In this document: positions 42,217-62,230 of the stretch, piece after piece
Layout of the letters: every line of letters begins with the position of its first letter
How positions within the stretch are numbered: position 1 is the stretch's first letter
DNA from: Elusimicrobia bacterium GWB2_63_22
GTDB taxonomy: Bacteria > Elusimicrobiota > Elusimicrobia > Elusimicrobiales > UBA9959
Assembly: GCA_001799735.1 (NCBI GenBank)
Contig: MGUA01000022.1
Location: 80,863-144,862, forward strand
Reading direction: 5' to 3'
DNA length: 64,000 nt
Position numbers and translations under genes: made by a program
Notes under the pieces: generated by a model
Told to the model about the DNA's origin: nothing
The model's input: the letters and a program-made list of their open reading frames with translations, nothing else
Database searches by the model: none

Positions 42217-42590
42217 TTCAAACCCGCGAAGATCTGTTCCGCGTGCCCGGTCTCTCCAGGCAGGCTCTTCTGCATGCAGACCACGGTGGGCCGGTGCTCC
42301 CTGCATTCCTCTTCCGAATATTGCGCGTAGGAGACTATGATGAGCAGGTCGCCCTTCTGCACCAGGCGCGCGGCCGCGCCGTTGACGCCGATCACGCCCC
42401 GGTCGCCGTGGATGACGTAGGTGGAGAACCTGGCGCCGGAGTTGACGTTGTAGATGTCCACCTTCTCGTTCTCCAGCAGGTCGGCCTGGCGGGCCAGGTC
42501 GCGGTCTATGGTGATGGAGCCGTTGTAATTGACGTCGGTCTGGGTGGCCGCCACCCTGTGGATCTTGGATTTCATCAGCGTGCGTATCAT
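42213..42590 (-). CDS. panD: Aspartate 1-decarboxylase
   Basis: [26 protein letters not shown] with G-S processing site. Confidence 0.96.
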
Positions 42591-43366
42591 TTCTTCGCCC
42601 TCTCTTTGTTCATCCTGGCCGCCATCGCCGTGCCGGTCAGCACCAGGTCGGCGAGCACCTTGTCGAAGAGTTCCGCCCCTTCGAACAGCTTGGAGAAGCC
42701 GCCGGTGCCCAGCACCAGGGCGTCCCCGCCGAAATATTCTTCTTTTATTTTAGCCGCTATGCCTTTTATGGCCAGCAGGTTGGAATAGTACAGGCCGGAC
42801 TGGATAGAGTCTACCGTGCTCTTGCCCACCAGTTCCGGCGGCTTCATGATCTCCACCCGGGGTAGCTTGGCGGTGCGCGTGGCCAGGGCCTCCATGGAGA
42901 TGCGCAGGCCCGGCAGTATCAGCCCGCCCAGGTATTCCTTGTTGCGGCTCACCGCGCAGAAGGTGGTGGCGGTGCCGAGGTCCACGATGATGAGGTTGCG
43001 GTCCGGGAACATGGCCGTGGCGGCTATGGAGTTGGCGATGCGGTCGGCGCCTACCTCCAGGGGGTTCTTGTACTTGATGTTGAGGCCGGTCTTTACGCCG
43101 CCCTGCAGCAGGAAAGGCTCGATGCCGAAATACTTTATGGCCATGTGGCGCAGCGTGTAGAGCAGGTCCGGCACTACGGAGCAGATGGCCACTTCCGTTA
43201 TCTCTTTAGGGTCTATGCCGTTCTCCCGGATGGCGTTCTTGAAGAAGGTGCCGAACTCGTCGGCGGTGGCGTTGCAGGAGGTGCCCCTGAACTTGGCCAC
43301 CACGTCGTCGTCCCTGAACACCCCGGCGAAGATCTGCGTGTTGCCTACATCGAGCGCTAATAGCAT
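42587..43366 (-). CDS. coaX: Type III pantothenate kinase
   Basis: [41 protein letters not shown]. Confidence 0.95.
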
Positions 43367-44037
43367 AAGGCCTCCGTTCTGTTCTCTATGAAGTTGAAAA
43401 GTTTTCCGGCCAGCTCTCCGGCCCCCGTGCAGGCTCCCGTCCTGGCGCCGTTGCTGTAGAGGCGGAAGATGCGGGCTCGCCGCATTTCCTCGAGGTCGTT
43501 ATGCACCACCAGGTCCGCTCCGGCCAGCGCGCGCACTTTTTGCAGCGCCTGCTCCGGTCCCGCGCCGGCGGTGAGTTTAAAGCCTATCAGCAGCGGCTCG
43601 GGCCTGCCTGCCGCGGCGGCGTAGCCTTTTATCCGGTCCAGGATCTTGAAGTTGCGCTTCAGGGTTACCCGCATTTCGGCGGGGGAGGAATCCAGCTTGG
43701 CGTCGCTGCCCGGAAGGAAAGTTTTGCCGTCCGCCTCTATGAGAGATGGGGAATAGTCGCTGACCGCGGCCAGGTGGATCACTGCGTCGAAAGTTTCCGC
43801 TCCCAGCGAGACCCGCAGGGCCGCGTCCAGCTCGCTGAAAGTGGAGAAACTCTTTACGCGTATATTGTCTCCTGCCGGGCGCTCTGCCCCGGCGGCGCAA
43901 AGGCAGAGCAGTTCGCAGCCCCGCCCGGCCAGGGTTTCGGCTATCACGCGCCCGGTACGGCCGCTGCTCATGTTGGTCACAAAGCGGGCCGCGTCTATGG
44001 GTTCGCGCGTCCCGCCGGAGGTGAGGAGTATTTTCAT
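43357..44037 (-). CDS. coaB: Phosphopantothenate-cysteine ligase (stand-alone CoaB)
   Basis: MKILLTSGGTREPIDAARFVTNMSSGRTGRVIAE; no CoaC domain in this ORF. Confidence 0.92.
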   Translation of the reverse strand: MKILLTSGGTREPIDAARFVTNMSSGRTGRVIAETLAGRGCELLCLCAAGAERPAGDNIRVKSFSTFSELDAALRVSLGAETFDAVIHLAAVSDYSPSLIEADGKTFLPGSDAKLDSSPAEMRVTLKRNFKILDRIKGYAAAAGRPEPLLIGFKLTAGAGPEQALQKVRALAGADLVVHNDLEEMRRARIFRLYSNGARTGACTGAGELAGKLFNFIENRTEALCY

Positions 44038-44573
44038 AAATATTTCCTGATCTCCAGGTAGATCTCGCCGGGCTCCAGCAGGCGGCCTTCGCCTATGTCG
44101 CCGCAGGCCTGGCGGCCTTTGGCGGGGCCCAGCAGCCGCACGCCCCACTCCGCCAGCGTTTTCGCCGAGCGGCGGGTGGCCGGGTGGTCCCACATGTTGC
44201 GGTTCATCGCCGGGGCCACCAGCCAGGGCTTCTTCTGGTCCCAGGCCAGGAACAGCGTGGTGAGGAAGTCGTCGGCTACGCCGGCCGCCAGTTTGTTCAT
44301 GACGTTGGCGGTGGCCGGGCAGACTATGGCCAGGTCCATCCACTTGGTGAGTTCTATATGCTCCAGCGCGGAGCGGTCCTCGAAGGTGTCCGTGTAGACC
44401 GGGTTATGGGTGAGGCCCTCCAGCGTGGACTTGCCTATGAACTTCAGGGCGTTGGGCGTGCAGACCGTCTTAACTTCGCAGCCGGCCTGCACCAGTTTGG
44501 AAATGACATTGCAGGCCTTGTAGCAGGCGATAGACCCGGTCAGCAGGAACAGTACTTTTTTAGATTTCAACAT
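44034..44573 (-). CDS. coaC: Phosphopantothenoylcysteine decarboxylase (stand-alone CoaC)
   Basis: KKVLFLLTGSIACYKACNVISKL, VAPAMNRNMWDHPATRRS; ATGA overlap with coaB. Confidence 0.93.
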   Translation of the reverse strand: MLKSKKVLFLLTGSIACYKACNVISKLVQAGCEVKTVCTPNALKFIGKSTLEGLTHNPVYTDTFEDRSALEHIELTKWMDLAIVCPATANVMNKLAAGVADDFLTTLFLAWDQKKPWLVAPAMNRNMWDHPATRRSAKTLAEWGVRLLGPAKGRQACGDIGEGRLLEPGEIYLEIRKYL

Positions 44574-45321
44574 TATCGATCAGCCTCACTTTTCCCAGTT
44601 TAGCGGCCGCGAACCTGCGGCCCCAGCGCTCCTCCACGTAATCCGGTTTAAAGCCCAGCGCCGCGAGCTCCTTCTTTATCCTGGCTGGCCCGGCTTTGGA
44701 GGAGAGTACCCGGTTCAAGGCCGGGGCCAGCGCCCTTTCGCGCGGTTCAAGCAGCCGGTTGCGCGAGCTCATGGCCAGCCCGTCGGGTTCCCGCAGGGTG
44801 GGGCAGGGCACTATCTCCGTGCGCAGGAAGAAAGCCTCCGCCATGCCGCTTATGAGCCGGTACTGCTGGTAATCCTTCTCGCCGAAATAGGCCCGGTCGG
44901 CCCGCACCAGGTTCAAGAGCTTCAGCACCACGGTCAGCACGCCCTCAAAATGGCCCGGCCGGCAGGCGCCGCAGAGCAGCCGGCTTTCCGTAGTCTCGCC
45001 GAGGCGGTAGCGGTAGCCGTCGGGGTACATATCTTTGGCGGAAGGCAGCAGCAGGAAATCCGTGCCGGCCTCCCGCAGCATTTTCGCGTCCGCGCCCAGG
45101 GTGCGGGGGTAGCGCTGCAGGTCTTTGGGGTCGTTGAACTGCGTGGGGTTCACGAAGACGCTGGCCACCGCTATAGCGTTCTCGGCCTTTGCCCGCCGCA
45201 GCAGGGACAGGTGGCCCTGGTGCAGGGCGCCCATGGTGGGCACAAAGCCTACTGTCCGTCCTGCAAAGCGCCGGCCGGCGCGCAGCTTAAGCCAGGCAGC
45301 CGTTCCTTTTAGTATTTCCAT
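44560..45321 (-). CDS. panC: Pantothenate synthetase
   Basis: VGFVPTMGALHQGHLSLLRRAK, SVFVNPTQFNDPKDLQRYPR. Confidence 0.96.
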   Translation of the reverse strand: MEILKGTAAWLKLRAGRRFAGRTVGFVPTMGALHQGHLSLLRRAKAENAIAVASVFVNPTQFNDPKDLQRYPRTLGADAKMLREAGTDFLLLPSAKDMYPDGYRYRLGETTESRLLCGACRPGHFEGVLTVVLKLLNLVRADRAYFGEKDYQQYRLISGMAEAFFLRTEIVPCPTLREPDGLAMSSRNRLLEPRERALAPALNRVLSSKAGPARIKKELAALGFKPDYVEERWGRRFAAAKLGKVRLIDNVEI

Positions 45322-46137
45322 TTATTTCTCCGCCAGCGCGTAAGGGCTTTCGGCCGCGGCCTTTTTTGGCTTTGCCGGGAAGGCGCCTTCCTTTACTTCC
45401 AGGTCGAAGGCGTTGAGGGCCTCGGTCACCAGGCGCCTGCCTTCGAGATACTGCTTTACGAAGGACGGCGGCTCGCCATAAAGGCCCAGCATGTCCTGCA
45501 TGACCAGCACCTGCCCGTCGGTATGCCGCCCGGCGCCTATGCCGATCACCGGGATCTTGAGCAGCTGCGTTATGCGCGCGGCCAGCGCCTCGGGCACGCA
45601 TTCCAGCACCAGCGCAAAGCAGCCGAGGCGTTCCAGTTCGAGGGCCTGTTCCACCAGTTTCTCGGCGGAGGCCTGGTCCCGGCCCTGCGTTTTGTAACCG
45701 CCCAGGCGGTTGAGCGACTGCGGCGTCAGGCCGAGGTGGCCCATCACCGGCATGTCGGACTGCACGATGTGGGCTATTATGTCGCCGTGGCCGTCCAGGC
45801 CTTCTATCTTAACGGCCTGCGCGCCGGCGCGGGCCAGCGCCTCCACGGTCTCCATGGCCGGCCCGAGGCCTTTGCGCACGGAGAGGAAGGGCATGTCGCC
45901 GACGATGAGCTTGCCTTTTACCGCGCGCGCCACGGCGGCGGTATGCAGCGCCATCAGTTCGGGGGTGGCGGCTAGGGTGGAGGGGTGGCCGTGCATCACC
46001 ATGGCCAGGCTGTCGCCCACCAGGACGCAGTCCACGCCGGAGCCGGCGGCGATGGACGCCAGCGTGTAGTCGTAGGCCGTGATCATGGAGATCTTCGGCC
46101 CGGGTTTCCGATAATTATAGAAGTCGGTTATTTTCAT
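45322..46137 (-). CDS. panB: 3-methyl-2-oxobutanoate hydroxymethyltransferase
   Basis: ITAYDYTLASIAAGSGVDCVLVGDSLAMVMHGH; GHLGLTPQS. Confidence 0.96.
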   Translation of the reverse strand: MKITDFYNYRKPGPKISMITAYDYTLASIAAGSGVDCVLVGDSLAMVMHGHPSTLAATPELMALHTAAVARAVKGKLIVGDMPFLSVRKGLGPAMETVEALARAGAQAVKIEGLDGHGDIIAHIVQSDMPVMGHLGLTPQSLNRLGGYKTQGRDQASAEKLVEQALELERLGCFALVLECVPEALAARITQLLKIPVIGIGAGRHTDGQVLVMQDMLGLYGEPPSFVKQYLEGRRLVTEALNAFDLEVKEGAFPAKPKKAAAESPYALAEK

Positions 46138-47114: not shown

Positions 47115-48656
47115 ATGAAAATACTCCTCCTGCTCCCCTTTCTCGCCCTCACACCCCCCGCGGCCCTGGCCGCGCAGCCCGGCACCTACGACTACGGCAT
47201 GGAGCAGCGCCGGGGCGGCGACTACGCCGGGGCGAAAGAAACTTTCCTGCAGCTCCTGGCGCAGAACCCGGCTAACGGCGGCGGCCTGGAAGGCCTGGCG
47301 CTGGCCTGCCTCTCTCTGGGGCAGTACGCCGAGGCCCTCCCCGCCCTGGAGAAATGGAACGCGCAGTCGCCCGGCAACCCTTATATCCTCGGCCTGCTGC
47401 TGCGCGCGCAAAAGGGCCTGCGAAACGAGGCCGGCGCGTTGGCCACGCTGAAGGCGCTGGCCGCCGCGGACCCGCGCGACTGCGCCGTCCGGTCCAGGCT
47501 GGACGCCGACCTGGAGCGCCTGGAGCGCGGCCTTTTCCCTTACGGCAAGTCCTACAAGTCCTACTCCGAGGAAGGGCTGGATACCGCCTCTCCCCAGCGC
47601 ATCCTCTACGAGGGCACGTCCGCCGGTTCCCGCTTCCGCGTGCCGCTTAAGGCCGGCCTGGACCTGATAGGCGGCGCAGAGATCCGTGAGGAAGCCCAGC
47701 GCAACGACGGCCAGGGCTTCACGTATTACGATATACAGGAACAGACCTATTCCGCCGGCCTCAACGGCCGCCCCTCCCGCGATCTCGGCTGGGAGGCGGA
47801 GTACGGCCTTTCGCTGCTTTCCGACATAGAGGGCGCCGGCATAGGCCACAAGCAGGTCAGCCGCGCGCGCCTCGCCGGCAGCTGGCATTACCGGAGCGCC
47901 GACCTGCGCCTGGCGCTGAACAGCGCCCCCAAATTCCTGCGCGGCCCCGGCGGCACGCAATTCTTCAAACTGCTGCGCGAGAATTCCGTCCGCGCCGAGG
48001 CTGAAGCCGGCCTTTGGGGCTGGGACTGGCTGGCCAGGGCCGGCATCTACGATACCTCCGACGGCACCACGCTGGGCGCCTACGGCCTGCGCGGCCTGAA
48101 AGAGACCGGCCCCTACGTTTTCCAGTCCGCCTATTCGCACGGCCAGCAGGAATTTTACAGCACCTCCGCCGAAGGGCATCTGCGCTATGTCAGCCTGGAC
48201 CGCCTCAGCCTGGGCCTGCGCCGCGCTTCCGCCGGGGTCTACCGCGCCGGCGTCTCGGCCGCCAAAACCTTCTACTCCGACACCAACCGGCTCGAGGAGC
48301 TGGAGACGGAGCTGACCGGCTGGCTGCCCTGGCAGAAAGAATTTTACGCCAGCTACCGCTTCTCCGTTCAGGATTTCCGCGGGGTGCGCGACGGCTACTC
48401 CTCTATAGACGAGCGCGCCCACTGGCTGGGCGCCTACTGGCGCCGCTGCGGCGGCTACAACTGGTCGGCCCTGGCCGGCTACGAGCACGGTTTCCTGGAG
48501 GACAGCCTGGCCAGCTACAAGGGCGATGTCTACCTGGCCGAAGCCGAGTGGTACGCCGGGCAGCGCGGCTCGGTGCGCGTGCAGGGCCGCCGCAAGACCA
48601 CCACCGGCCGCGGCCGTTCCTATTCGCTCGGCCTGCAGGCCCGCTACAGTTTCTGA
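47115..48656 (+). CDS. TPR + outer-membrane beta-barrel protein (BcsC/PgaA-like architecture)
   Basis: Signal peptide, N-terminal TPRs, long beta-rich region ending ...SYSLGLQARYSF (C-terminal Phe). Confidence 0.78.
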   Translation: MKILLLLPFLALTPPAALAAQPGTYDYGMEQRRGGDYAGAKETFLQLLAQNPANGGGLEGLALACLSLGQYAEALPALEKWNAQSPGNPYILGLLLRAQKGLRNEAGALATLKALAAADPRDCAVRSRLDADLERLERGLFPYGKSYKSYSEEGLDTASPQRILYEGTSAGSRFRVPLKAGLDLIGGAEIREEAQRNDGQGFTYYDIQEQTYSAGLNGRPSRDLGWEAEYGLSLLSDIEGAGIGHKQVSRARLAGSWHYRSADLRLALNSAPKFLRGPGGTQFFKLLRENSVRAEAEAGLWGWDWLARAGIYDTSDGTTLGAYGLRGLKETGPYVFQSAYSHGQQEFYSTSAEGHLRYVSLDRLSLGLRRASAGVYRAGVSAAKTFYSDTNRLEELETELTGWLPWQKEFYASYRFSVQDFRGVRDGYSSIDERAHWLGAYWRRCGGYNWSALAGYEHGFLEDSLASYKGDVYLAEAEWYAGQRGSVRVQGRRKTTTGRGRSYSLGLQARYSF

Positions 48657-48658
48657 TT

Positions 48659-49018
48659 ATGAAAAAACGGATCGCCAGCTTCAAATACGCCTGCAAGGGC
48701 GTACACCGCGTAGCCGCCTCGCAGGTCAATTTCCGCATCCACCTGGCCGCCGCCGCGGCTGCCGTCTTCCTCGGCTTTTACCTGCGCATCTCCAGGGCCG
48801 AATGGACGGTTGTGCTGCTCTGTTTCGCGCTCGTCATGTCGGCCGAGGCCTTCAACAGCGCGATAGAGAAACTGGTGGACCATGTCTCCCCGCAGTACCA
48901 CGCGCAGGCCGGGGAGGTAAAGGACATGGCCGCCGGCGCGGTGCTGATCTCGGCGGCGCTGGCGGCCGTTATCGGCTGTATTATTTTTTTGCCGGGGCTG
49001 GCGGCGCGGCTGGGCTGA
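48659..49018 (+). CDS. dgkA: Diacylglycerol kinase / undecaprenol kinase
   Basis: RIASFKYACKGVHRVAASQVNFRIHLAAA.., VMSAEAFNSAIEKLVDHVSP. Confidence 0.94.
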   Translation: MKKRIASFKYACKGVHRVAASQVNFRIHLAAAAAAVFLGFYLRISRAEWTVVLLCFALVMSAEAFNSAIEKLVDHVSPQYHAQAGEVKDMAAGAVLISAALAAVIGCIIFLPGLAARLG

Positions 49019-50918
49019 CCCCGGAGCCCGGCGCGGTGCGCGCCAGTTCGTAGAGCTCAATCTTTCCAAAATCCGCCGACGACCAGTTCCCGGCCGGGAT
49101 GAAACGCCCGGCCAGCTTCTCCATATTTTCCCGCTCTTCTTTTCCTTCCTCAGGGTACCAGGCCGGTACCCAGAGGGCGAAGTAGCGCACGTTCAGGCGC
49201 TCGAGCAGCGCCAGCCACGCGGCCGTGTCGGTAGCGGTAAAGGTGTCTGGATAAGGCGTTTTGTCGGCGGTGACCACGATCACCCTGCCGCGCGCGGGGA
49301 CGCCGGCCCAGGGCAGCATCAGCTCGCCGTAGTTGGTCGCCACCACGTCGCCTGGCGCCAGGCGCGCGTCCAGCGCCGCCCAGGCCTCGCCGAGCGCGCC
49401 GTATTTCTCGCGATAATATTTAAAAGGCCGCACCTGCCCGGCGCCCCGCAGGGCGTCCCAGGCGTTGACCGTATGCCGGTCCCGGCCCGCGTAGTTAAGC
49501 ACCCCGAACAAACCCCAGGCGATGCCTAAAGTCCAGCCGGCCGCCGCGAGGGCCCTCAGGCCGCCCGCGGCTTTTCTGAAGACATAGACGAGGGAAAGGA
49601 TAGGCACGGCCGCGATGAAGATGACGTAGCGCTGCTCGCGGGTGGGGTGCAGGGCGAAAAAGAAGAAGGCCGTGGCCGGCAGCAGCAGCAGAAACCAGAA
49701 AGCCCCGCGGTCCCGGGCGCGCCGCGCCCGCCACAGCGCGTAGGGCCAGAACGCCCAGCCGGCCGCGAACAGCGGGCCAAAACCGTTCTCGGTGCCGTAC
49801 ACGGTGGCGCCCTTCATGGTTTCGTGGAAAGGGTACCAGAGCCAGCCCCATGGCGAGGAGACGAACCAGCTCTCCACCGTCACCAGCAGCTCTCCCGGGG
49901 AGACCACGCCTTTGAAAATAGTTTTGACCCCGATCCGGAAGGCGTAGGGGAAAATAGGGTTGCCGGTGGTCCACCAGTTGTGCAGGTAGCTGGAGGCCCC
50001 GCACAGCGCGGCCAGGGCCAGCAGGCCGGGGGCCAGGCGCAAAGCCCGCCGGGCCAGCGCTTCGTCGGAGTACAAAGTCCGCAGCAGCGGCAGCAGCAGG
50101 GGCAGCTGGAAGTACAGCGTGGATTTTGTCCCGGCCGCCAGGCCAAAAGCCGCGGCGTAGAGGAAAAGATAAACCGGCCTGCGGGTGCGCTCCAGGCATA
50201 AGGCGGCGGCCGCGGCGGCCAGCCAGAAAGCCGAGTAGATCAGGTCCACGTAGGGAATGCCGGCGTGTATTACGGCTATCGGCAGGCAGACCAGGGCCAG
50301 CGCCGACGGGACGGCCCAGCGGAGGCCGGCCAGCCGCCTGCCCAGCACGGCCCCGGCGGCGCCCAGCACGGGCAGGGCCAGGGCCTGGGCCAGCTTGGCC
50401 GAGTCCAGCGCGCCGCCCAGCAGCGCCAGCCAGGCCGGCAGCAGCTCCCCGTTCCAGGGGAAATAGCGGGCCGGTCCCACCCAGCCGGCCAGGTCGAAAT
50501 TGCCCTGCTGCAGCCAGCGCCAGAGTATCGGTACATGGTAGCTTAAGCCGTCCCAGGAGTCGAAAGGCAGGGCTGCGGCCAGTTTTAACCGGAAGTAAAG
50601 CACGGCGGCGGCGAGCCCCAGCGCCGGCCACAGCGGCCACGGGACCAGCAGCGCCAGCCGCCGGAAGGACAGCCGCGGCCGCAGCGGGCGGCGCCGGTGT
50701 AGGGCTGCGGCCAGGTTGCCGGCGGCCAGCAGCAGTGTGAAGATTATCGCCGGGGCCGGCCTCAGCAGGCCCAGCCAGCCCAGCAGTGTTATGGCGGTTA
50801 AAACCTCGGTGCAGGCGAGCAGCCCTGCCGCGAGCAGCGCTTCGTCCGTCCTTTTAAGGCGGTTGCGCGCCAGCAGCCAGGCGGAAGCGTAAAGCAGGGC
50901 GGCTAGCGGCCAGGCCAT
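48981..50918 (-). CDS. Multi-TM glycosyltransferase (GT39/PMT-like, GT-C fold)
   Basis: ~10 TM segments, LPFDSWDGLSYHVPILWRWLQQGNFD, AAGTKSTLYFQLPLLLPLL. Confidence 0.75.
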   Translation of the reverse strand: MAWPLAALLYASAWLLARNRLKRTDEALLAAGLLACTEVLTAITLLGWLGLLRPAPAIIFTLLLAAGNLAAALHRRRPLRPRLSFRRLALLVPWPLWPALGLAAAVLYFRLKLAAALPFDSWDGLSYHVPILWRWLQQGNFDLAGWVGPARYFPWNGELLPAWLALLGGALDSAKLAQALALPVLGAAGAVLGRRLAGLRWAVPSALALVCLPIAVIHAGIPYVDLIYSAFWLAAAAAALCLERTRRPVYLFLYAAAFGLAAGTKSTLYFQLPLLLPLLRTLYSDEALARRALRLAPGLLALAALCGASSYLHNWWTTGNPIFPYAFRIGVKTIFKGVVSPGELLVTVESWFVSSPWGWLWYPFHETMKGATVYGTENGFGPLFAAGWAFWPYALWRARRARDRGAFWFLLLLPATAFFFFALHPTREQRYVIFIAAVPILSLVYVFRKAAGGLRALAAAGWTLGIAWGLFGVLNYAGRDRHTVNAWDALRGAGQVRPFKYYREKYGALGEAWAALDARLAPGDVVATNYGELMLPWAGVPARGRVIVVTADKTPYPDTFTATDTAAWLALLERLNVRYFALWVPAWYPEEGKEERENMEKLAGRFIPAGNWSSADFGKIELYELARTAPGSGVSPAAPPAPAKK

Positions 50919-51067
50919 CAGAAGAACTCCCTCATGCCCTGCAGGAAAGAGGCGTGGTTCCAGAAATAAACAGCCAGCAGGGCAAAAAAAACCAGCAGGG
51001 CCGCCCACTCCCGGCGGCGCGCGCCAGCCCGGCCGGCGGTCGGCTTGTTGTTAGTCTCTGTAGGCAT
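50918..51067 (-). CDS. 49-aa single-TM small protein
   Basis: MPTETNNKPTAGRAGARRREWAALLVFFALLAVYFWNHASFLQGMREFF; 17-nt overlap with upstream gene, TGATG coupling to downstream gene; not in supplied ORF track. Confidence 0.7.
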   Translation of the reverse strand: MPTETNNKPTAGRAGARRREWAALLVFFALLAVYFWNHASFLQGMREFF

Positions 51068-52145
51068 TCTTGAACTCCGCGTAGTCGGGCGAGGCGGAGA
51101 GGAAAGCGTGTATGGCCGTCGGCTTTTTAAGGCGCTTTATCTCCTCAACGGCTTTTTTCCTGGCGGCAGTGTCCATTGACCTCCAGGGATAGCTTGCGAG
51201 GGGGAGGCGGTATTTGGCCGCGATCTCTTTTTCCTTTTTTATCCAGGACAGGTTTTCCGGGTTGGCCGGGTCCAGCAGGGAGACCAGCGAGGCCACGCTG
51301 CCGTTGAGCACGTAGCCGAAAAATTCCTCGTCCGTAGGGTAGGGCATCAGGAAGACGTCCTTGGCCAGCACCGTTATCGCGCCGCGTTCAAAACTTTTTA
51401 TGTCGTAGAGCGTCCTGGCCGAACCGGGCGGCGGGGCAGCCTGGGCCCCGTCCCCGGAGAGCCCGGCGAGCATCCGCCTGAAGACGTTCACCCGGTCCTT
51501 GCCCAGGTAGCAGTGCACGTAGTATTTTCCGGAGCCCTTCGCCAGCAGCTCCGAAAGCGCCTTCTCCACGTGGTCGTTGGAGGAGATCCAGGGCAGCATC
51601 GGCAGGTGTATGAGCGGCAGCCCGGCTTCTTGGGCTTCCTCTATCTCGCTGGCCAGCAGGACCGGTTCGAAGGGGACCACGGCCGGGCTGAGCAGCGAGA
51701 TGACCGCAGTGTAGCCTTCCTCCTTCAGCCCGGAGAGCCGCTCCTCCCCCGGGTAGGGGCCGAAGACGAATTCCGTCCCGGAAACAATGACGGCATCGCT
51801 CTTCATCCCCCGGTCTATCATCAGGGAAGGGGTCAGCCAGAACCACAGGGCCAGCAGGGCCAGCGCCAGGGCGCCGGCAGGCAGGCCGTAGCGGCCGGCC
51901 TTCCCGGCGGCGGCGGTCTTATCCGCCAGCAGCCTGGCGCACAGCAGCGAGACGAAGAAAAGAACGCCTATCAGGGCGAAGACCGCCGCCTTCTCTCCAG
52001 TTTCGCTCCAGCCGGCGGCCCGGGCGTGGTCCGTGATACGGCGTACCGGCCCCATCAGGGTAAGCGTGCCGAGGAAGAACCCAGAGCAGAGCCAGTGCCA
52101 GGCGAATAGCGCCGCGTACTTTAAAGAGTTCCGTTCTTTTTTCAT
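51051..52145 (-). CDS. Membrane protein with tyrosine-phosphatase-like domain
   Basis: N-term TM segments; KYYVHCYLGKDRVNVF = HCX5R motif; second degenerate copy near C-terminus. Confidence 0.75.
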   Translation of the reverse strand: MKKERNSLKYAALFAWHWLCSGFFLGTLTLMGPVRRITDHARAAGWSETGEKAAVFALIGVLFFVSLLCARLLADKTAAAGKAGRYGLPAGALALALLALWFWLTPSLMIDRGMKSDAVIVSGTEFVFGPYPGEERLSGLKEEGYTAVISLLSPAVVPFEPVLLASEIEEAQEAGLPLIHLPMLPWISSNDHVEKALSELLAKGSGKYYVHCYLGKDRVNVFRRMLAGLSGDGAQAAPPPGSARTLYDIKSFERGAITVLAKDVFLMPYPTDEEFFGYVLNGSVASLVSLLDPANPENLSWIKKEKEIAAKYRLPLASYPWRSMDTAARKKAVEEIKRLKKPTAIHAFLSASPDYAEFKNAYRD

Positions 52146-52171
52146 AAGCCGTTCTGTGAAGCGGGGTCTGG

Positions 52172-53572
52172 CTACTGCTTGAAAACCTGCCGGTCCTGGG
52201 TGCCCCAGGCGGTTTCGCGGAAGGAGAGCGTAGCGCGCAGGCGCTCGAGCAGCATGATCTGCCTGTAGCCGAAAAATTCTGCGGCCGAGAGCAGGCAGAG
52301 GCGCAGGATGTCAGAGGTTTTCTTATAGCGCCGGAAATTATAGGTATCCAGGAAGACGGCCGCGACGTTGATGGAGATGCCCCAGAACACGGCCATAAGA
52401 ATAAGCATTACCATGAACTGGGTGTTAAGCATGCCCAGGAAGTACAGGATAGGGATAGAGACGTAGCCGAACAGCTCTATGAGCGGGCCGAGGAATTCCA
52501 CGAAGACGAAGTAGGAGATGCCGACCAGGCTGGTGGCCCCGTATTTGCGGTTGAGTATCATGCCGCGGTTGGACAGCAGGGCGTCTATCATGCCGCGGTG
52601 CCAGCGGTTGCGCTGCTTGAGCAGCATCTTCATGGAGAAGGGGGCCTGCGTCCAGCAGACCGGGTCCGGCACGAACAGTATCTTGTAGGGGATGGCGTTA
52701 TCCTTGCAGTGGCGGTGCAGGCGCATCACCAGGTCCATGTCCTCGCCGATGGTCTTGCGGTAGCCGTTGACCGCCACCACCATGTCCTTGCGGAAAACCC
52801 CGAAGGCGCCGGAGATGATCAGCAGGCTCTTGAGAGCGTTCCAGCCGGTGCGCCCGGAGAGGAAGGCGCGGGTGTATTCCAGCACCTGCATCGCCTCGAT
52901 GAAGCTCCCGGGCAGGCCGATCTCCACCACGGAGCCGTCCTGTATGCGGCAGCCGTTGAGGATACGGATGATGCCGCCGGTGGCGATAAGCTCGTCGTCC
53001 TCCAGAAAAAGTTTGGACGATTTAAGTATGGCGTCCGGCTCCAGGATGGAGTCCGCGTCGATGGAGCAGAAGATGGGGTAGGAGGAGACGTTGATGCCGG
53101 CGTTAATGGCGTCCGCCTTGCCGCCGTTCTCCTTGTCGATCACAATGAGGTTCGGGTAATCAGCGGACTTGAAGATGGCCCTTATGGCCTCGTGCGGCAC
53201 CTGCAGGCGTACGGGCTTTTTGGATGAGACCAGGGAGAAGTCCTCTTTGAGCCTGGCCAGCGTGTCGTCGGTGGAGCCGTCGTTGATGACGATGATCTCG
53301 AATTCCGGGTAGTGCAGGTTGGTCAGCGCCTTGACGCTCTGGGCGATGACGGCGGCCTCGTTGTAGGCCGGCACTATGACCGAGACCGGCTTGTAATAGA
53401 ACTCGCCGGCCAGCTGCCGCCGCGCCACGCGGGAGGTGGTAAGATAGGCGTGGCGGATAATGTCGCGCATGGCGAGGACGATAAGCACGGTGTACACCGT
53501 GTTGATGGCGAGGAAATATAGAAAAACCGTGAACTGGGAGAATTGCAGGGCGAACCAGAGCAGGAAGCTCAC
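52172..53572 (-). CDS. Processive GT2 polysaccharide synthase-like glycosyltransferase
   Basis: VIVPAYNEAAVIAQSV, VINDGSTDDT, SIDADS, GEDMDL, KQRNRWHRG (QxxRW); GTG start at SD AGGAGG, overlaps HEAT gene stop. Confidence 0.88.
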   Translation of the reverse strand: MSFLLWFALQFSQFTVFLYFLAINTVYTVLIVLAMRDIIRHAYLTTSRVARRQLAGEFYYKPVSVIVPAYNEAAVIAQSVKALTNLHYPEFEIIVINDGSTDDTLARLKEDFSLVSSKKPVRLQVPHEAIRAIFKSADYPNLIVIDKENGGKADAINAGINVSSYPIFCSIDADSILEPDAILKSSKLFLEDDELIATGGIIRILNGCRIQDGSVVEIGLPGSFIEAMQVLEYTRAFLSGRTGWNALKSLLIISGAFGVFRKDMVVAVNGYRKTIGEDMDLVMRLHRHCKDNAIPYKILFVPDPVCWTQAPFSMKMLLKQRNRWHRGMIDALLSNRGMILNRKYGATSLVGISYFVFVEFLGPLIELFGYVSIPILYFLGMLNTQFMVMLILMAVFWGISINVAAVFLDTYNFRRYKKTSDILRLCLLSAAEFFGYRQIMLLERLRATLSFRETAWGTQDRQVFKQ

Positions 53573-54657
53573 AGGGCCTCCTGGCTGAGGGCGTAGGCGG
53601 CCGCGGCCGCGGCGAACCTGTCGTCGGAAGATTCCTCGGCCCTGAGCACGGCGCGACCTGCGTCGCCCGACCGCGCAAAAGCCAGGGCCGCGTTCAGCCG
53701 CACGTGGTAGTTGGGGTCGTGGAGCATGGCCCGGACCTCCGGCAGCATGTCGGTGCAGCACAGGTGCGAGAATTTGAGCGCGGCCAGGCGCACCCGCCAG
53801 TCGGGGTGCTTCAGGGCGGCCGGCAGCTGCGAGAAATCGCCTATGCCGGCCAGCGCCCGCAGCGAGGCGATCAGTATTTCCGGCTCGCCGGGGAAGGCCG
53901 CGTAATACCCGAGCAGCGTCGCGCGGCCCTTTTCGCATACGGCCGCGGAACAGGCGGCCAGGCAGTCGCGCTTTACCATTTTCAGCACGCTCTCGTCGTG
54001 CATAGTGTCGCGCATGAACAGGCCGAACTCCTCTTCCCTGCCCGCGGCTTTCAACGCCGTGATGACGTTGTAGAAGATGTCCTCGGTGTACTTGGCCGTC
54101 AGGTACGGCAGAGAGGAGAGCAGCCGCGCCAGGACCAGGATGTCGCCGTGGTCCCGTACCAGCCGGCTCAGGCCGTAGATGATGCGGTACTTCACCTCGC
54201 TGGAGGTCTCGCTGCGGAAGATCGCGAGGAAAAATTCTTTATTGGCTTTCAGGCGGAACGAGGCCAGGATGTCCACGGCGTTGCCGCGCTTGTACCAGGT
54301 CCGGTGCCGGGCCAGGCGGCGGTAATGCGCGTCTATGCCCAGCTGTGTGATGAGCGCTGCGGCGCGGTCCGCTATCTCGCCCTCAAAGCTGTCCAGCACG
54401 CTGGCCACGGCCTCGCTGTAGGCGGCGTATTCGTCTTCGGTGGCGGGCTTGGGGAGCAGCTCGGCCGCGTTGGTGGCGGTTATCAGCGCCGTGGAAGCCA
54501 GGCGCTTGAGATTCTGGCGCTTCCGCTCCGACCTCTCCACTCGGGCTTTGTTGTAGAGCAGGAACAGGATCTCGAAGGTGTTGAAAAACACCAGCAGCAG
54601 CACGGCCAGGGTGATGTAATCGTAGAAATTGCGGGATTCTGTAATGAAATCGAACAA
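53569..54657 (-). CDS. Membrane-anchored HEAT-repeat protein
   Basis: N-terminal TM; repeated PDWRVRLAALKFS..DPNYHVRLNAALAFARSGD units. Confidence 0.8.
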   Translation of the reverse strand: MFDFITESRNFYDYITLAVLLLVFFNTFEILFLLYNKARVERSERKRQNLKRLASTALITATNAAELLPKPATEDEYAAYSEAVASVLDSFEGEIADRAAALITQLGIDAHYRRLARHRTWYKRGNAVDILASFRLKANKEFFLAIFRSETSSEVKYRIIYGLSRLVRDHGDILVLARLLSSLPYLTAKYTEDIFYNVITALKAAGREEEFGLFMRDTMHDESVLKMVKRDCLAACSAAVCEKGRATLLGYYAAFPGEPEILIASLRALAGIGDFSQLPAALKHPDWRVRLAALKFSHLCCTDMLPEVRAMLHDPNYHVRLNAALAFARSGDAGRAVLRAEESSDDRFAAAAAAYALSQEAL

Positions 54658-54700
54658 GGCGTCACCGTTAAACGGCCGGGCCCGGCAGCCTGCCGGCGGG

Positions 54701-55072
54701 CTATTTCTTCTTTTCCAGGAACTTCTCTATCCTGAGCTTCAGGTGTTCTACGTTGGCCGGCTTGGTGATGTATTCCTCTATGCCCAGACCGTAGCCGCGC
54801 TGTATGTTGGAGGCCTGCTTCAGCGAGGTCATCATGAAGATCGGTATATGTTTTGTCTTTTCGGTCTCTTTGAGCTGTTTAGCAACATCGAACCCCGACA
54901 TCTTGGGCATATTGATGTCGAGCAGCAGGATATCCGGGTTAAAGGCGGCCGCCTTCTCCAGGCCTTCCGGCCCGTCGAAAGCCGTCTCCACCGTGTGCCC
55001 GGCCTTGGTAAAGTAGGCCCTGCAGATCAGGTGTATGGTCTCGTCGTCGTCTATGATGAGTATTTTTGCCAT
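54701..55072 (-). CDS. Single-domain response regulator
   Basis: MAKILIIDDDETIHLICRAYF..ILLLDINMPKMSGFD..MMTSL..ITKPANVEHL. Confidence 0.93.
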   Translation of the reverse strand: MAKILIIDDDETIHLICRAYFTKAGHTVETAFDGPEGLEKAAAFNPDILLLDINMPKMSGFDVAKQLKETEKTKHIPIFMMTSLKQASNIQRGYGLGIEEYITKPANVEHLKLRIEKFLEKKK

Positions 55073-55143: not shown

Positions 55144-55863
55144 TTAGTTAAGCAGCTGCGCGCTCTTGATGTAGTCCATCCTGGGGAACTCGGCCTTCAG
55201 GTAGGCGTTGCCCTGCATCTGCACGCGGCCCTGGTCCGGGCCCATGCCGCTGGGAGCGCCTTCGCCGTAGCCGGAGTAGATGCTCTCCACCACGTCCATC
55301 CCCTCGGTCACTTTGCCGAAGGGGGAGAAGCCCATGCCGTCCAGGCGCTCGTTGTCGCCGAAGTTGATGAACATCTGGGTGGTGCGGGTGTTGGGGCCGG
55401 CCATGGCGAATGAGATGTAGCCCTTGGTGTTGGACTGCTTCACGGGGTCGTCCTGGATGCGGGCGCCGCGCCAGGCGGAGGCCACGGCGGGGTCGCCATG
55501 GATGCCGAACTGCACCATGAAGCCGCTGATGACGCGGAAGAAGGCGATGTCGGCGAAGTAGCCGTTCTTGACCAGGTTGTAGAACCGGTCGGCGCCGAGG
55601 GGGGACCAGGCGCGGGTGACCTCGAGCGTGAAGGCGCCCTTGGTGGTGTCGAACTTGACCTTGAAGGTCTCGGGGGCCTTTTCCGTGGCCTTGGACGGGT
55701 CTTTTAATATATCCATGTTGACTTTCGCCTCCTTGATCTCAGCCGGGGCCGCGGCGGTGGTGGCCGACGGGGCGGAACCGGTCTGGTTGGTTTCCTGCGC
55801 CTTGTGGGAACAGGAGACAGCAAAAAACGCCGCTACAGCAAACGACAGATGACGGATGTTCAT
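55144..55863 (-). CDS. Cyclophilin-type peptidyl-prolyl isomerase lipoprotein
   Basis: Lipobox AVSC; DRFYNLVKNGYFADIAFFRVISGFMVQFG, FINFGDNERLDGMGFSPFGKV. Confidence 0.93.
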   Translation of the reverse strand: MNIRHLSFAVAAFFAVSCSHKAQETNQTGSAPSATTAAAPAEIKEAKVNMDILKDPSKATEKAPETFKVKFDTTKGAFTLEVTRAWSPLGADRFYNLVKNGYFADIAFFRVISGFMVQFGIHGDPAVASAWRGARIQDDPVKQSNTKGYISFAMAGPNTRTTQMFINFGDNERLDGMGFSPFGKVTEGMDVVESIYSGYGEGAPSGMGPDQGRVQMQGNAYLKAEFPRMDYIKSAQLLN

Positions 55864-59678: not shown

Positions 59679-59952
59679 TTATGTTTTGGCCTGGGTGGCC
59701 GGTGAGTCGGCCAAGGCCTTTGATACTGCGGCCATAAAAACTTCCAGGTTGAACGGCTTCTCGAAATAAAATTTGGAGCCTGCCCGGGGGCGAGTTCTGA
59801 GGCGGAGCCTGTGACAAGGAGGCTTTTTGCCCCCTTCTGGTTCTCCTCGAATATTCTTGTCAGCTCGGTGCCCAGGCCGTCTTGCAGCATCAAGCCTGTT
59901 ATAAGCAGGTCGCAGCCTTGTCGTCGTCGGCCATAAGTATATTTCTCGGCAT
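59679..59952 (-). pseudogene. Decayed response-regulator receiver
   Basis: MPRNILMADDDKAAT / CDLLITGLMLQDGLGTELTRIFEENQKGAKSLLVTGSASELAPGQ / GSKFYFEKPFNLEVFMAAVSKALADS spread over different frames. Confidence 0.75.
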
Positions 59953-60013
59953 CTTGTCTCGGTAAGGGGCATACGGTCCACCGGGGCATAGGACGCCAAA
60001 CCTATGACGGTGG

Positions 60014-62107
60014 TCAACTTTTGGCGTTCTTCAAGGGGTGTTCGGCGTGTGCCGGGGCGCGTGTGGCCGGCGGGGACAAGGCTTCGCGCACTTTTTGCGT
60101 GAGCAGGTCTAGCGTGAACGGCTTTTGAATAAAATTTTTGTCCGGGGGCAACATGCCGTCGGTAAGGACGGAATGGTCCGTATAGCCGGACATGTAGATG
60201 ACTTCCATCTCCTGGTACTCTGCCTTCAATCGTTCCGCCAGTTCTATGCCGGTCATTTCAGGCAGGACCATATCCGTCAGCAGCAGGTCTATACGCTTTT
60301 GATGATGTTTGCAGAGGGTAAGCGCCTCCTCGGCACTGCCGGCTTCCAGCACTGAGAGTCCGTCTTCGGAGAGTGCGCGCCTGGCGAGGGTCTTTATCTG
60401 GGTATCGTCGTCCACCACCAGGACCGTGCCGCTTACGGCGGAAAACTTTTTAACGGCGGCTGGCTGCCCTGCCTCGGCCGCTTCACCTGAAGCCAGGGGG
60501 AAGTACAGTTTAAAGACCGTGCCGCGGCCTTCCTCGCTGTCTATCACTATGGTCCCGCCGCTTTGCTTGACTATCCCATGCACGGTGGAGAGCCCGAGGC
60601 CGGTGCCTTTATCGCGCGGTTTTGTGGTAAAGAACGGCTCGAAGATATGCGCTTTTGTTTCAGCGTTCATACCGCAGCCGTTGTCGCTGACCGAAAGCAG
60701 GGCATACTCGCCCGGCTTCAGGGTGCCGTTGCGGTGGATGTATTCGGCGTCAATACGCGCGACGGAGACTTCAAGGGTCAGTTTCCCGCCTTTAGGCATG
60801 GAGTCGCGGGCGTTAACACAGAGGTTTAAAAGCACTTGCTCCAGGTAACCCGGGTCCGCTTTTATCAGCACCGGCTCTTTGCGCGCAACAGTGGTCAGTT
60901 TTATGTTTTCGCCTATCAGGCGGTGGAGCATGGTCTTCATCCCCGCGAGGATCATGTTAATGTCCAGTACTTTCGGCTGGAGCACCTGTTTGCGGCTGAA
61001 GGCCAGGAGCTGGCGGGTCAGCGCGGCGGCGCGCTGGCCTGTATTTTTTATCTCTTCTACGTCGGAACGTTTGGGGTCATCCTCCCCCATGGCTTTGAGC
61101 AGTAAGTCGCTATAGGTCAGAATGGCGGAGAGCATATTATTGAAATCGTGCGCTATGCCGCCGGCCAGGTTGCCGGCGGTCTCCATTTTCTGCGACTGGC
61201 GTAATTGCTCTTCCAACTGGGCCCTTTCCTGTTCTGCCGCCCTGGCCGCGCTTATGTCTTCCACCATTCCCAGATAGCGTGGATTGGTCTTGTCGAACGC
61301 CGGCAGCGGGGTGGCGGTGAGCTTTACCCAGGCTATGCTCCCGTCGGGCCTGAGATATCGCTTTTCCACCTGGAGCACTTTTGTTTCCCCGGAGTTAAGC
61401 CGGGCCAGGCTGTCAGACTGCGTCTTTATATCTTCGGGATGAGTGACGCTCATCCAGTCGGCGCCGGCCAGGTCTTCCTGGGACCGGCCGATTATCCTGG
61501 CCAGCATCGGGTTCACGCGCAGGAAGCGGTCTGTCCTGGCGTCGAGCAGGCATATTCCCATGGGAGATTCTGTGAACACGGCTTTGAACAGCGCTTCGCT
61601 CTCTTTCAGGGATTCCAGGGCTTTTTCCCTGAGCGCAAGTTGTTCCGCTAATTCATGCGTGCGCAGCGCTACCATCTGCCGCAGTTGGGCGCGCTCCGTC
61701 TGTTGTGAGATGTTTGCCGCCTTGATCTTCAGCATGGCCCGTATCTGGACCAGCAGTTCCCAGAGCTCGAAAGGCTTTGAAATGAACGCCTCGGCCCCGG
61801 CCGCAAGGGCCTTTTCGCAGATCTCGGCATCGGGCTTAACGGCGGTAAGGAATATCACGGGGGTATTCTTGAGGCGGATGTCCTCTTTGATGCGCCTGCA
61901 AGTCTCAAAGCCGTCCATCTCAGGCATTACGACGTCGAGCAGGATTATGTCGGGGATCTTTGCCAGGGCCAGCTCTATGCCTTGAGCCCCGCTCCGGGCG
62001 GGAAAGAAGTCCGCGCCGGGGAAGGTGTGGGCTATCCCGGCCTGTAATTGTTCCAGTGTTTCTTCTCCGTCGTCTATGGCCAGGAACTTGTATCTATGGG
62101 TGGTCAT
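60014..62107 (-). CDS. Hybrid sensor histidine kinase (REC-PAS-HK-REC)
   Basis: FLAIDDGEETLEQL..DVVMPEMDGFE; PAS; LAGGIAHDFNNMLSAIL; DNGCGMNAET; VLVVDDDTQIKTLARRAL..LTDMVLPEMTGIEL. Confidence 0.94.
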   Translation of the reverse strand: MTTHRYKFLAIDDGEETLEQLQAGIAHTFPGADFFPARSGAQGIELALAKIPDIILLDVVMPEMDGFETCRRIKEDIRLKNTPVIFLTAVKPDAEICEKALAAGAEAFISKPFELWELLVQIRAMLKIKAANISQQTERAQLRQMVALRTHELAEQLALREKALESLKESEALFKAVFTESPMGICLLDARTDRFLRVNPMLARIIGRSQEDLAGADWMSVTHPEDIKTQSDSLARLNSGETKVLQVEKRYLRPDGSIAWVKLTATPLPAFDKTNPRYLGMVEDISAARAAEQERAQLEEQLRQSQKMETAGNLAGGIAHDFNNMLSAILTYSDLLLKAMGEDDPKRSDVEEIKNTGQRAAALTRQLLAFSRKQVLQPKVLDINMILAGMKTMLHRLIGENIKLTTVARKEPVLIKADPGYLEQVLLNLCVNARDSMPKGGKLTLEVSVARIDAEYIHRNGTLKPGEYALLSVSDNGCGMNAETKAHIFEPFFTTKPRDKGTGLGLSTVHGIVKQSGGTIVIDSEEGRGTVFKLYFPLASGEAAEAGQPAAVKKFSAVSGTVLVVDDDTQIKTLARRALSEDGLSVLEAGSAEEALTLCKHHQKRIDLLLTDMVLPEMTGIELAERLKAEYQEMEVIYMSGYTDHSVLTDGMLPPDKNFIQKPFTLDLLTQKVREALSPPATRAPAHAEHPLKNAKS

Positions 62108-62230
62108 ACCGCTTCCCCCTATCAAACGCGAAAGATTTATGAAGCTATAATCCGCTGGTGTCGATGGAAAATTGCCCCTCTTCTGAGCGGTTGCTGTTTT
62201 TATCTGGCCTGCCCTGTATGCGTGGGAAAG

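Follow-up and report, generated by a model that had tools for sequence, protein, structure and literature searches.

A processive GT2 glycosyltransferase linked to a membrane-anchored HEAT-repeat protein and a CheY-like receiver: a putative exopolysaccharide synthase system in Elusimicrobiota and other phyla

Polymerization of sugars at the inner membrane together with extrusion of the polymer is established biology of GT2 glycosyltransferases, and the described systems closest to the one reported here include PgaABCD/HmsHFRS, the Bcs cellulose synthase, the cyclic di-GMP (c-di-GMP)-activated glycan system NfrA/NfrB that combines a GT2 with a TPR outer-membrane partner, and the Escherichia coli yaiP–yaiO locus of the YaiO family (TIGR04390). 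In this study, a stretch of 64,000 nucleotides from Elusimicrobia bacterium GWB2_63_22 (contig MGUA01000022.1, positions 80,863 to 144,862; the whole stretch is called the window) was analyzed, which belongs to an Elusimicrobiota metagenome-assembled genome (MAG) of 3.06 Mb in 45 contigs. The window carries a GT2 gene preceded by genes for a HEAT-repeat protein and a receiver (REC), and the locus is probably a synthase-type exopolysaccharide system in which the REC and a HEAT adaptor stand in place of PilZ or PgaD control. The synthase-dependent exopolysaccharide class is known, while the REC-HEAT control module appears undescribed: no relevant paper on REC-HEAT control of a GT2 was found in the open-access literature (HEAT repeat, YaiO, glycosyltransferase, exopolysaccharide).

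Similar to PgaABCD/HmsHFRS, the locus encodes a processive GT2 with similar motifs and a TPR-barrel outer-membrane protein, and a glycoside-hydrolase-like partner comparable to PgaB is found in the window's relatives; however, neither PgaD nor a deacetylase was recognized here, and HEAT and REC are present instead. With the Bcs system it shares an inner-membrane GT2 carrying DxD, ED, and QxxRW as well as the concept of a TPR-barrel exporter (BcsC), but PilZ and BcsB are both missing from the locus, a Pfam scan of its proteins detecting no PilZ domain. Unlike the NfrA/NfrB synthase, the window GT2 has no C-terminal regulatory domain. As for the YaiO family, many of the relatives' barrels beside HEAT-GT2 match TIGR04390/PF19413, while the window's own barrel is not recognized by the model. 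The Xanthomonas xagABCD genes, a GT2 operon distinct from pga that is needed for elevated biofilm and is up-regulated in a mutant of rpfG, a c-di-GMP phosphodiesterase (PMC3609779), are a possible relative, compared here by published description.

The genes of the window locus are as follows:

54701..55072, minus strand: REC, a stand-alone CheY-like receiver of 123 aa (Pfam Response_reg, 2e-26)
53569..54657, minus strand: membrane-anchored HEAT-repeat protein of 362 aa with a TTG start (HEAT_2, 1.6e-11)
53569..53572, minus strand: 4-nt GTGA overlap of the HEAT TGA stop and the GT2 GTG start (from the sequence)
52172..53572, minus strand: processive-type GT2 synthase of 466 aa with a GTG start (Glycos_transf_2, 4e-24)
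51051..52145, minus strand: membrane PTP/DSP-like protein (homologues, HCxLGxxR, and predicted structure)
50918..51067, minus strand: micro-ORF of 49 aa with one predicted transmembrane helix (sequence and transmembrane prediction)
48981..50918, minus strand: GT-C type membrane glycosyltransferase of 645 aa (PMT_2, 0.0015, below the cut-off, and transmembrane pattern)
48659..49018, plus strand: dgkA, a small prokaryotic lipid kinase, convergent (DAGK_prokar, 8e-35)
47115..48656, plus strand: protein of 513 aa with signal peptide, TPRs, and a predicted outer-membrane barrel (TPR_19, 3e-8)
55144-55863: cyclophilin gene upstream of REC, kept in family relatives

An earlier note on this DNA had listed the reading frames from REC to dgkA as a candidate exopolysaccharide system, and all of them were found where it placed them. 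Its claims that the HEAT stop overlaps the GT2 start and that the genes are coupled from HEAT onward also held: the 4-nt overlap is followed by a 26-nt gap between GT2 and PTP, a 17-nt overlap of PTP and micro-ORF, and a 1-nt overlap (TGATG) of micro-ORF and GT-C, while REC lies 43 nt from HEAT with no overlap. The processive-synthase motifs attributed to the GT2 are present as DGST, DADS, GED, and QRNRW.

To find related loci, a GT2-alignment scan seeded with HEAT-associated GT2s was run on one genome per species, and the best 80 of the loci listed were inspected. They come from Elusimicrobia, Bacteroidota, Acidobacteria, Ignavibacteriae, Neomarinimicrobiota, Gemmatimonadota, Actinobacteria, Chloroflexi, Bacillota, Thermus, Proteobacteria, Bdellovibrio, Treponema, and Myxococcota, and from two archaea, a Methanomicrobia MAG and a Thermoplasmatota MAG. 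In 79 of the 80 relatives from other genomes HEAT is directly upstream of GT2, and the GT2 start codon was placed for the same 4-nt HEAT overlap in 35 of 79 homologous loci. An N-terminal transmembrane helix was predicted in all HEAT homologues (79/79), at residues 15–33 in the window protein, which is likewise directly upstream of, and coupled to, its GT2. The cross-phylum linkage and the co-translation signature are thus well supported, and the conserved start/stop overlap with the near-absolute linkage imply, as far as gene arrangement goes, that GT2 and HEAT act as one unit. Consistently, among 30 control loci in the phylum matching the PgaC model, the 4 that hold the family GT2 all have HEAT (4/4), while the other 26 gave a single HEAT-profile match, on the opposite strand.

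The AlphaFold2 model of the HEAT protein (mean predicted local distance difference test score, pLDDT, 89) comprises a helix at residues 2–60 followed by an alpha solenoid. Basic residues after the transmembrane helix suggest a cytosolic location of the solenoid. None of the searched models covers this subunit beyond its HEAT repeats.

In 53 of 77 loci, a REC gene lies upstream of HEAT at a distance of at most 400 bp, compared with 5/73, 5/70, 8/66, and 6/61 (7–12%) at four downstream positions of the same loci, an enrichment of about seven-fold for the position just upstream of HEAT. The window belongs with the majority of members, though not all, that have REC in this place. Its phosphorylation residues are all there, namely DDD near the N-terminus, the D of LLLDINMP, the T of MMTS, and the K of TKP. 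The window REC lacks an output domain and so probably works through binding, with HEAT as the partner encoded beside it. In larger REC proteins, a REC is at the extreme C-terminus and next to HEAT in all those examined by Pfam (8/8); of these 8 fusions, 4 have a GGDEF match, one of them strong, and 5 have an Hpt match. The earlier proposal that the synthase is partnered by HEAT and REC in place of PilZ/BcsB is supported, HEAT by its near-constant presence and REC by its presence in most loci.

Within the phylum, 295 genomes were searched for HEAT homologues. Close ones were found in 12 family genomes including that of the window, and 12/12 carry the GT2. The order REC-HEAT-GT2 with the upstream cyclophilin was kept in all 11 other family loci. 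PTP follows GT2 in 8 of them, and in a ninth the contig ends inside PTP; dgkA converges on PTP in the 8 with a complete PTP; and the TPR-barrel is present in 10/11, the contig of the eleventh ending first. The relatives encode a secreted glycosidase-like protein of ~310 aa between barrel and dgkA, matching a PDB entry named 'putative GH97' at 2e-9 (GH18 only at E 0.04), and several also have there a sulfatase-fold membrane protein of ~800 aa, for which LtaS and OpgB were the closest named models. In the window, GT-C and the micro-ORF stand between PTP and dgkA. No counterpart of GT-C was found in the family relatives' loci, and the micro-ORF has so far been seen in the window alone; with these two private genes, the window locus represents a local variant. 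The synteny search that the note had called for therefore found conserved neighbors, and its refuting case of no conservation fails. Its idea of a distinct architecture stands for REC-HEAT-GT2, but not as something private to one genome, the trio occurring in many phyla and GT-C and micro-ORF lying outside the conserved set.

The convergent gene had been read as an exporter with the layout of BcsC/PgaA. The TPR plus barrel layout was confirmed, but a PgaA-type assignment was not: against the PgaA model TIGR03939 the window protein scored 22.2 bits, in the TPR region only, with a cut-off of 366.65. As a rule for the group, BcsC/PgaA-type exporters did not hold either, since the exporter at diderm loci is usually YaiO-type; a YaiO barrel was found in 34/80 relatives' loci, and YaiO is also annotated at HEAT-GT2 loci of Mesorhizobium and Emticicia. 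The window barrel gave no direct match to the YaiO models (TIGR04390/PF19413). In profile–profile comparison (hhalign), the full-length protein reached a probability of 97% against YaiO, helped by its TPRs, and the barrel part alone 35%, with four controls at ≤0.3%. At one Elusimicrobiota locus (L041, 10432-12606), the GT2 frame runs into a YaiO domain through a hydrophobic joint, an odd pairing of inner- and outer-membrane parts. GT2 frames of 728–863 aa in other Elusimicrobiota were considered as GT2-YaiO fusions and rejected, the extra length being merely upstream open frame.

Taken as an exopolysaccharide system, the locus would work as follows. The GT2 would polymerize sugar at the inner membrane and extrude the polymer, and the TPR-barrel protein would carry it through the periplasm and the outer membrane in this diderm. 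HEAT, anchored by one helix and lying on the cytosolic side by the GT2 catalytic domain, would be an obligate partner of the synthase. In the most economical model, the CheY-like REC would dock on the solenoid of HEAT in a phosphorylation-dependent manner, its phosphorylated form binding there and switching the GT2, in the place taken by PilZ in BcsA or by PgaD. A hybrid histidine kinase (60014..62125, minus strand; REC-PAS-HisKA-HATPase-REC by Pfam) about 5 kb from the locus is a possible, unproven candidate for the phosphodonor or partner. In the relatives, an LtaS/OpgB-type enzyme would probably put phosphoglycerol on the polymer, with DgkA recycling the leftover diacylglycerol.

Several observations weigh against this reading. 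The window locus lacks the glycosidase-like and LtaS-type genes of its relatives. The best PDB matches of the HEAT model in Foldseek are HEAT/ARM-type solenoids and designed alphaReps, so the fold indicates a binding scaffold and nothing further; such solenoids are generic binders, and the modeled structure yields no functional relative. The barrel cannot be proven to be YaiO-type, because the 97% of the full-length protein drops to 35% without the TPR half, and its barrel half appears weakly YaiO-like. Finally, REC is non-adjacent in about one third of the loci, in some lying further upstream or on the opposite strand.

Those non-adjacent REC genes would fit an explanation in which HEAT is a mere assembly or stability factor for GT2 and REC acts not on the synthase but on another target, such as a kinase or diguanylate cyclase; the REC proteins with GGDEF, which could work through c-di-GMP, point the same way. 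We consider this unlikely, although it survives better than the other alternatives, as it has to face the seven-fold enrichment of REC right upstream of HEAT, the REC end of the fusions that faces HEAT, and a window REC devoid of an output domain.

Further genes recur beside the synthase. LtaS/OpgB-type enzymes use phosphatidylglycerol as the source of the glycerol phosphate that they transfer; the remaining diacylglycerol is phosphorylated by DgkA, as in the synthesis of membrane-derived oligosaccharides (MDO) in E. coli. The diacylglycerol left would explain dgkA beside the LtaS gene in the relatives, and dgkA persists in the window with no local LtaS. The window genome encodes LtaS-like proteins elsewhere (~30% identical), and a search of it for the glycosidase-like gene gave no orthologue. 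LtaS-type genes occur in family relatives and at 7 loci outside the phylum, and glycosidase-like homologues at 10. In Stenotrophomonas koreensis, HEAT, GT2, YaiO, LtaS, and a glycoside hydrolase (GH) follow one another with overlapping ends, and in a Sphingobacterium MAG (L117, 8896-12318) the GT2 is fused to an LtaS/sulfatase-fold domain (residues 742–1028 of 1140); frames of 1135–1273 aa in the same phylum may be similar GT2-LtaS fusions. Beside HEAT-GT2 in Bacillota and other groups (L084, L090, L094, L097, and others), a family of 700–1100 aa with no Pfam match looks glycosidase-like by eye.

The PTP-like protein has transmembrane helices, a domain with HCxLGxxR, and a second domain without the motif. 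HCxLGxxRV is invariant in 5 homologues, and homologues lie directly downstream of GT2 at two Acidobacteriota loci and in Rubrobacter and Halobacillus. No Pfam family was above the cut-off and a PDB sequence search gave no significant match. The predicted structure (pLDDT 75, moderate) consists of N-terminal helices and a PTP-like domain, for which the best PTP-fold match in Foldseek was the plant glucan phosphatase 4kyq (E 3e-3), with DUF442 phosphatases and KAP also found; because SRP GTPases are listed at similar E-values, it is chiefly the invariant HCxLGxxR that supports the identification. In an Acidobacteriota MAG (L062, 11632-13860), the PTP homologue has a multi-transmembrane C-terminal region resembling a dolichol/phytol (polyprenol) kinase by eye, which Pfam did not confirm; together with the window dgkA this hints at lipid-phosphate metabolism.

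From these companions it could be argued that the product is not an exported polysaccharide but either a periplasmic phosphoglycerol-substituted glucan of the osmoregulated periplasmic glucan (OPG)/MDO type or a lipid-linked glycan, with the LtaS/OpgB-like enzyme and DgkA working as in E. coli. The OpgB/LtaS-type proteins at relatives' loci, the dgkA kept in the locus of the window's family, and the kinase-like region of the Acidobacteriota PTP homologue agree with it, and the first two are also likenesses to the OPG/MDO and lipoteichoic acid (LTA) systems. However, the window locus differs from those systems in having no LtaS-type gene and a polymerase of another kind, the best named models of its GT2 being PgaC-type polymer synthases and the named-model scan giving no match to OpgH. 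YaiO or TPR-barrel proteins at many diderm loci and the GH-like partner also speak against an unexported product, as does the occurrence of the module in archaea and in monoderm Bacillota, where a periplasm of that kind does not exist. We therefore regard this explanation as improbable, slightly more so than the stability-factor one.

That the locus is a divergent form of a usual PNAG (PgaABCD) or cellulose (Bcs) system might be suspected since PgaC_IcaA is the best NCBIfam model for the window GT2 and since TPRs occur in the barrel protein as they do in PgaA. The GT2 scored 127.8 bits against PgaC_IcaA (TIGR03937; curated cut-off 422.3), 45.9 bits against BcsA (TIGR03030; cut-off 699), and 15.4 bits against NfrB (cut-off 1170); PNAG, cellulose, and NfrB membership were rejected on these scores, all far under the cut-offs, as is that of the barrel for PgaA. 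A tree built from 90 HEAT-type GT2s and 20 controls put the HEAT type into a single group (support 0.91) standing apart from the PgaC-like controls, and the family scores were bimodal (HEAT type ≥504 bits, controls ≤192 bits). By tree and scores the window GT2 is a member of this clade. With a separate GT2 clade and no PilZ found, an ordinary PNAG or cellulose system is very improbable. That the genes are chance neighbors in a single genome, for which the private GT-C and micro-ORF might speak, is practically negligible and already refuted by synteny, REC-HEAT-GT2 being conserved in the 12 family genomes and across phyla.

The module was also seen in annotated plasmid records, to which no system name is attached: ATP-binding protein - response regulator (RR) - RR - YaiO - HEAT - GT2 - Hpt in Mesorhizobium ciceri, RR - HEAT - GT2 in the haloarchaeon Salinirubellus, RR - hypothetical - GT2 - hypothetical - YaiO - LTA synthase in Emticicia, and TPR - HEAT - GT2 in Deinococcus radiophilus. 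At a threshold of E≤1e-80, and counting the GT2 alone irrespective of a HEAT neighbor, the GT2 subfamily was present in 66/248 sampled species (27%) of the phylum to which the Mucilaginibacter carrier belongs, 37/295 (13%) of the window's own phylum, 23/250 (9%) of the Rossellomorea phylum, and 9/249 (4%) of the Stenotrophomonas phylum. We tentatively propose, as a possibility short of an even chance, that REC and membrane HEAT form a phosphorylation-controlled gate for processive GT2s in many bacterial phyla and archaea, separate from PilZ and PgaD, and that in some of these systems an LtaS-type enzyme decorates the polymer with phosphoglycerol. If true, this would be one of the commoner exopolysaccharide machines, regulated via a receiver-HEAT pair, and tractable carriers exist in Massilia, Clostridium, Rossellomorea, Deinococcus, and haloarchaea.

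Two further observations were made in the window. Adjoining the hybrid kinase, remains of a receiver-domain-like gene lie in three frames at 59680-60017 (minus strand), probably a broken gene or a region of sequence error. On the other side of the locus, a CoA/pantothenate cluster at 42587-46137 (minus strand) contains, by eye, panB, panC, and a type III pantothenate kinase, and its CoaC-type flavoprotein frame (44034-44573) is apart from the CoaB-like frame, so that the CoaB and CoaC functions are on two frames.

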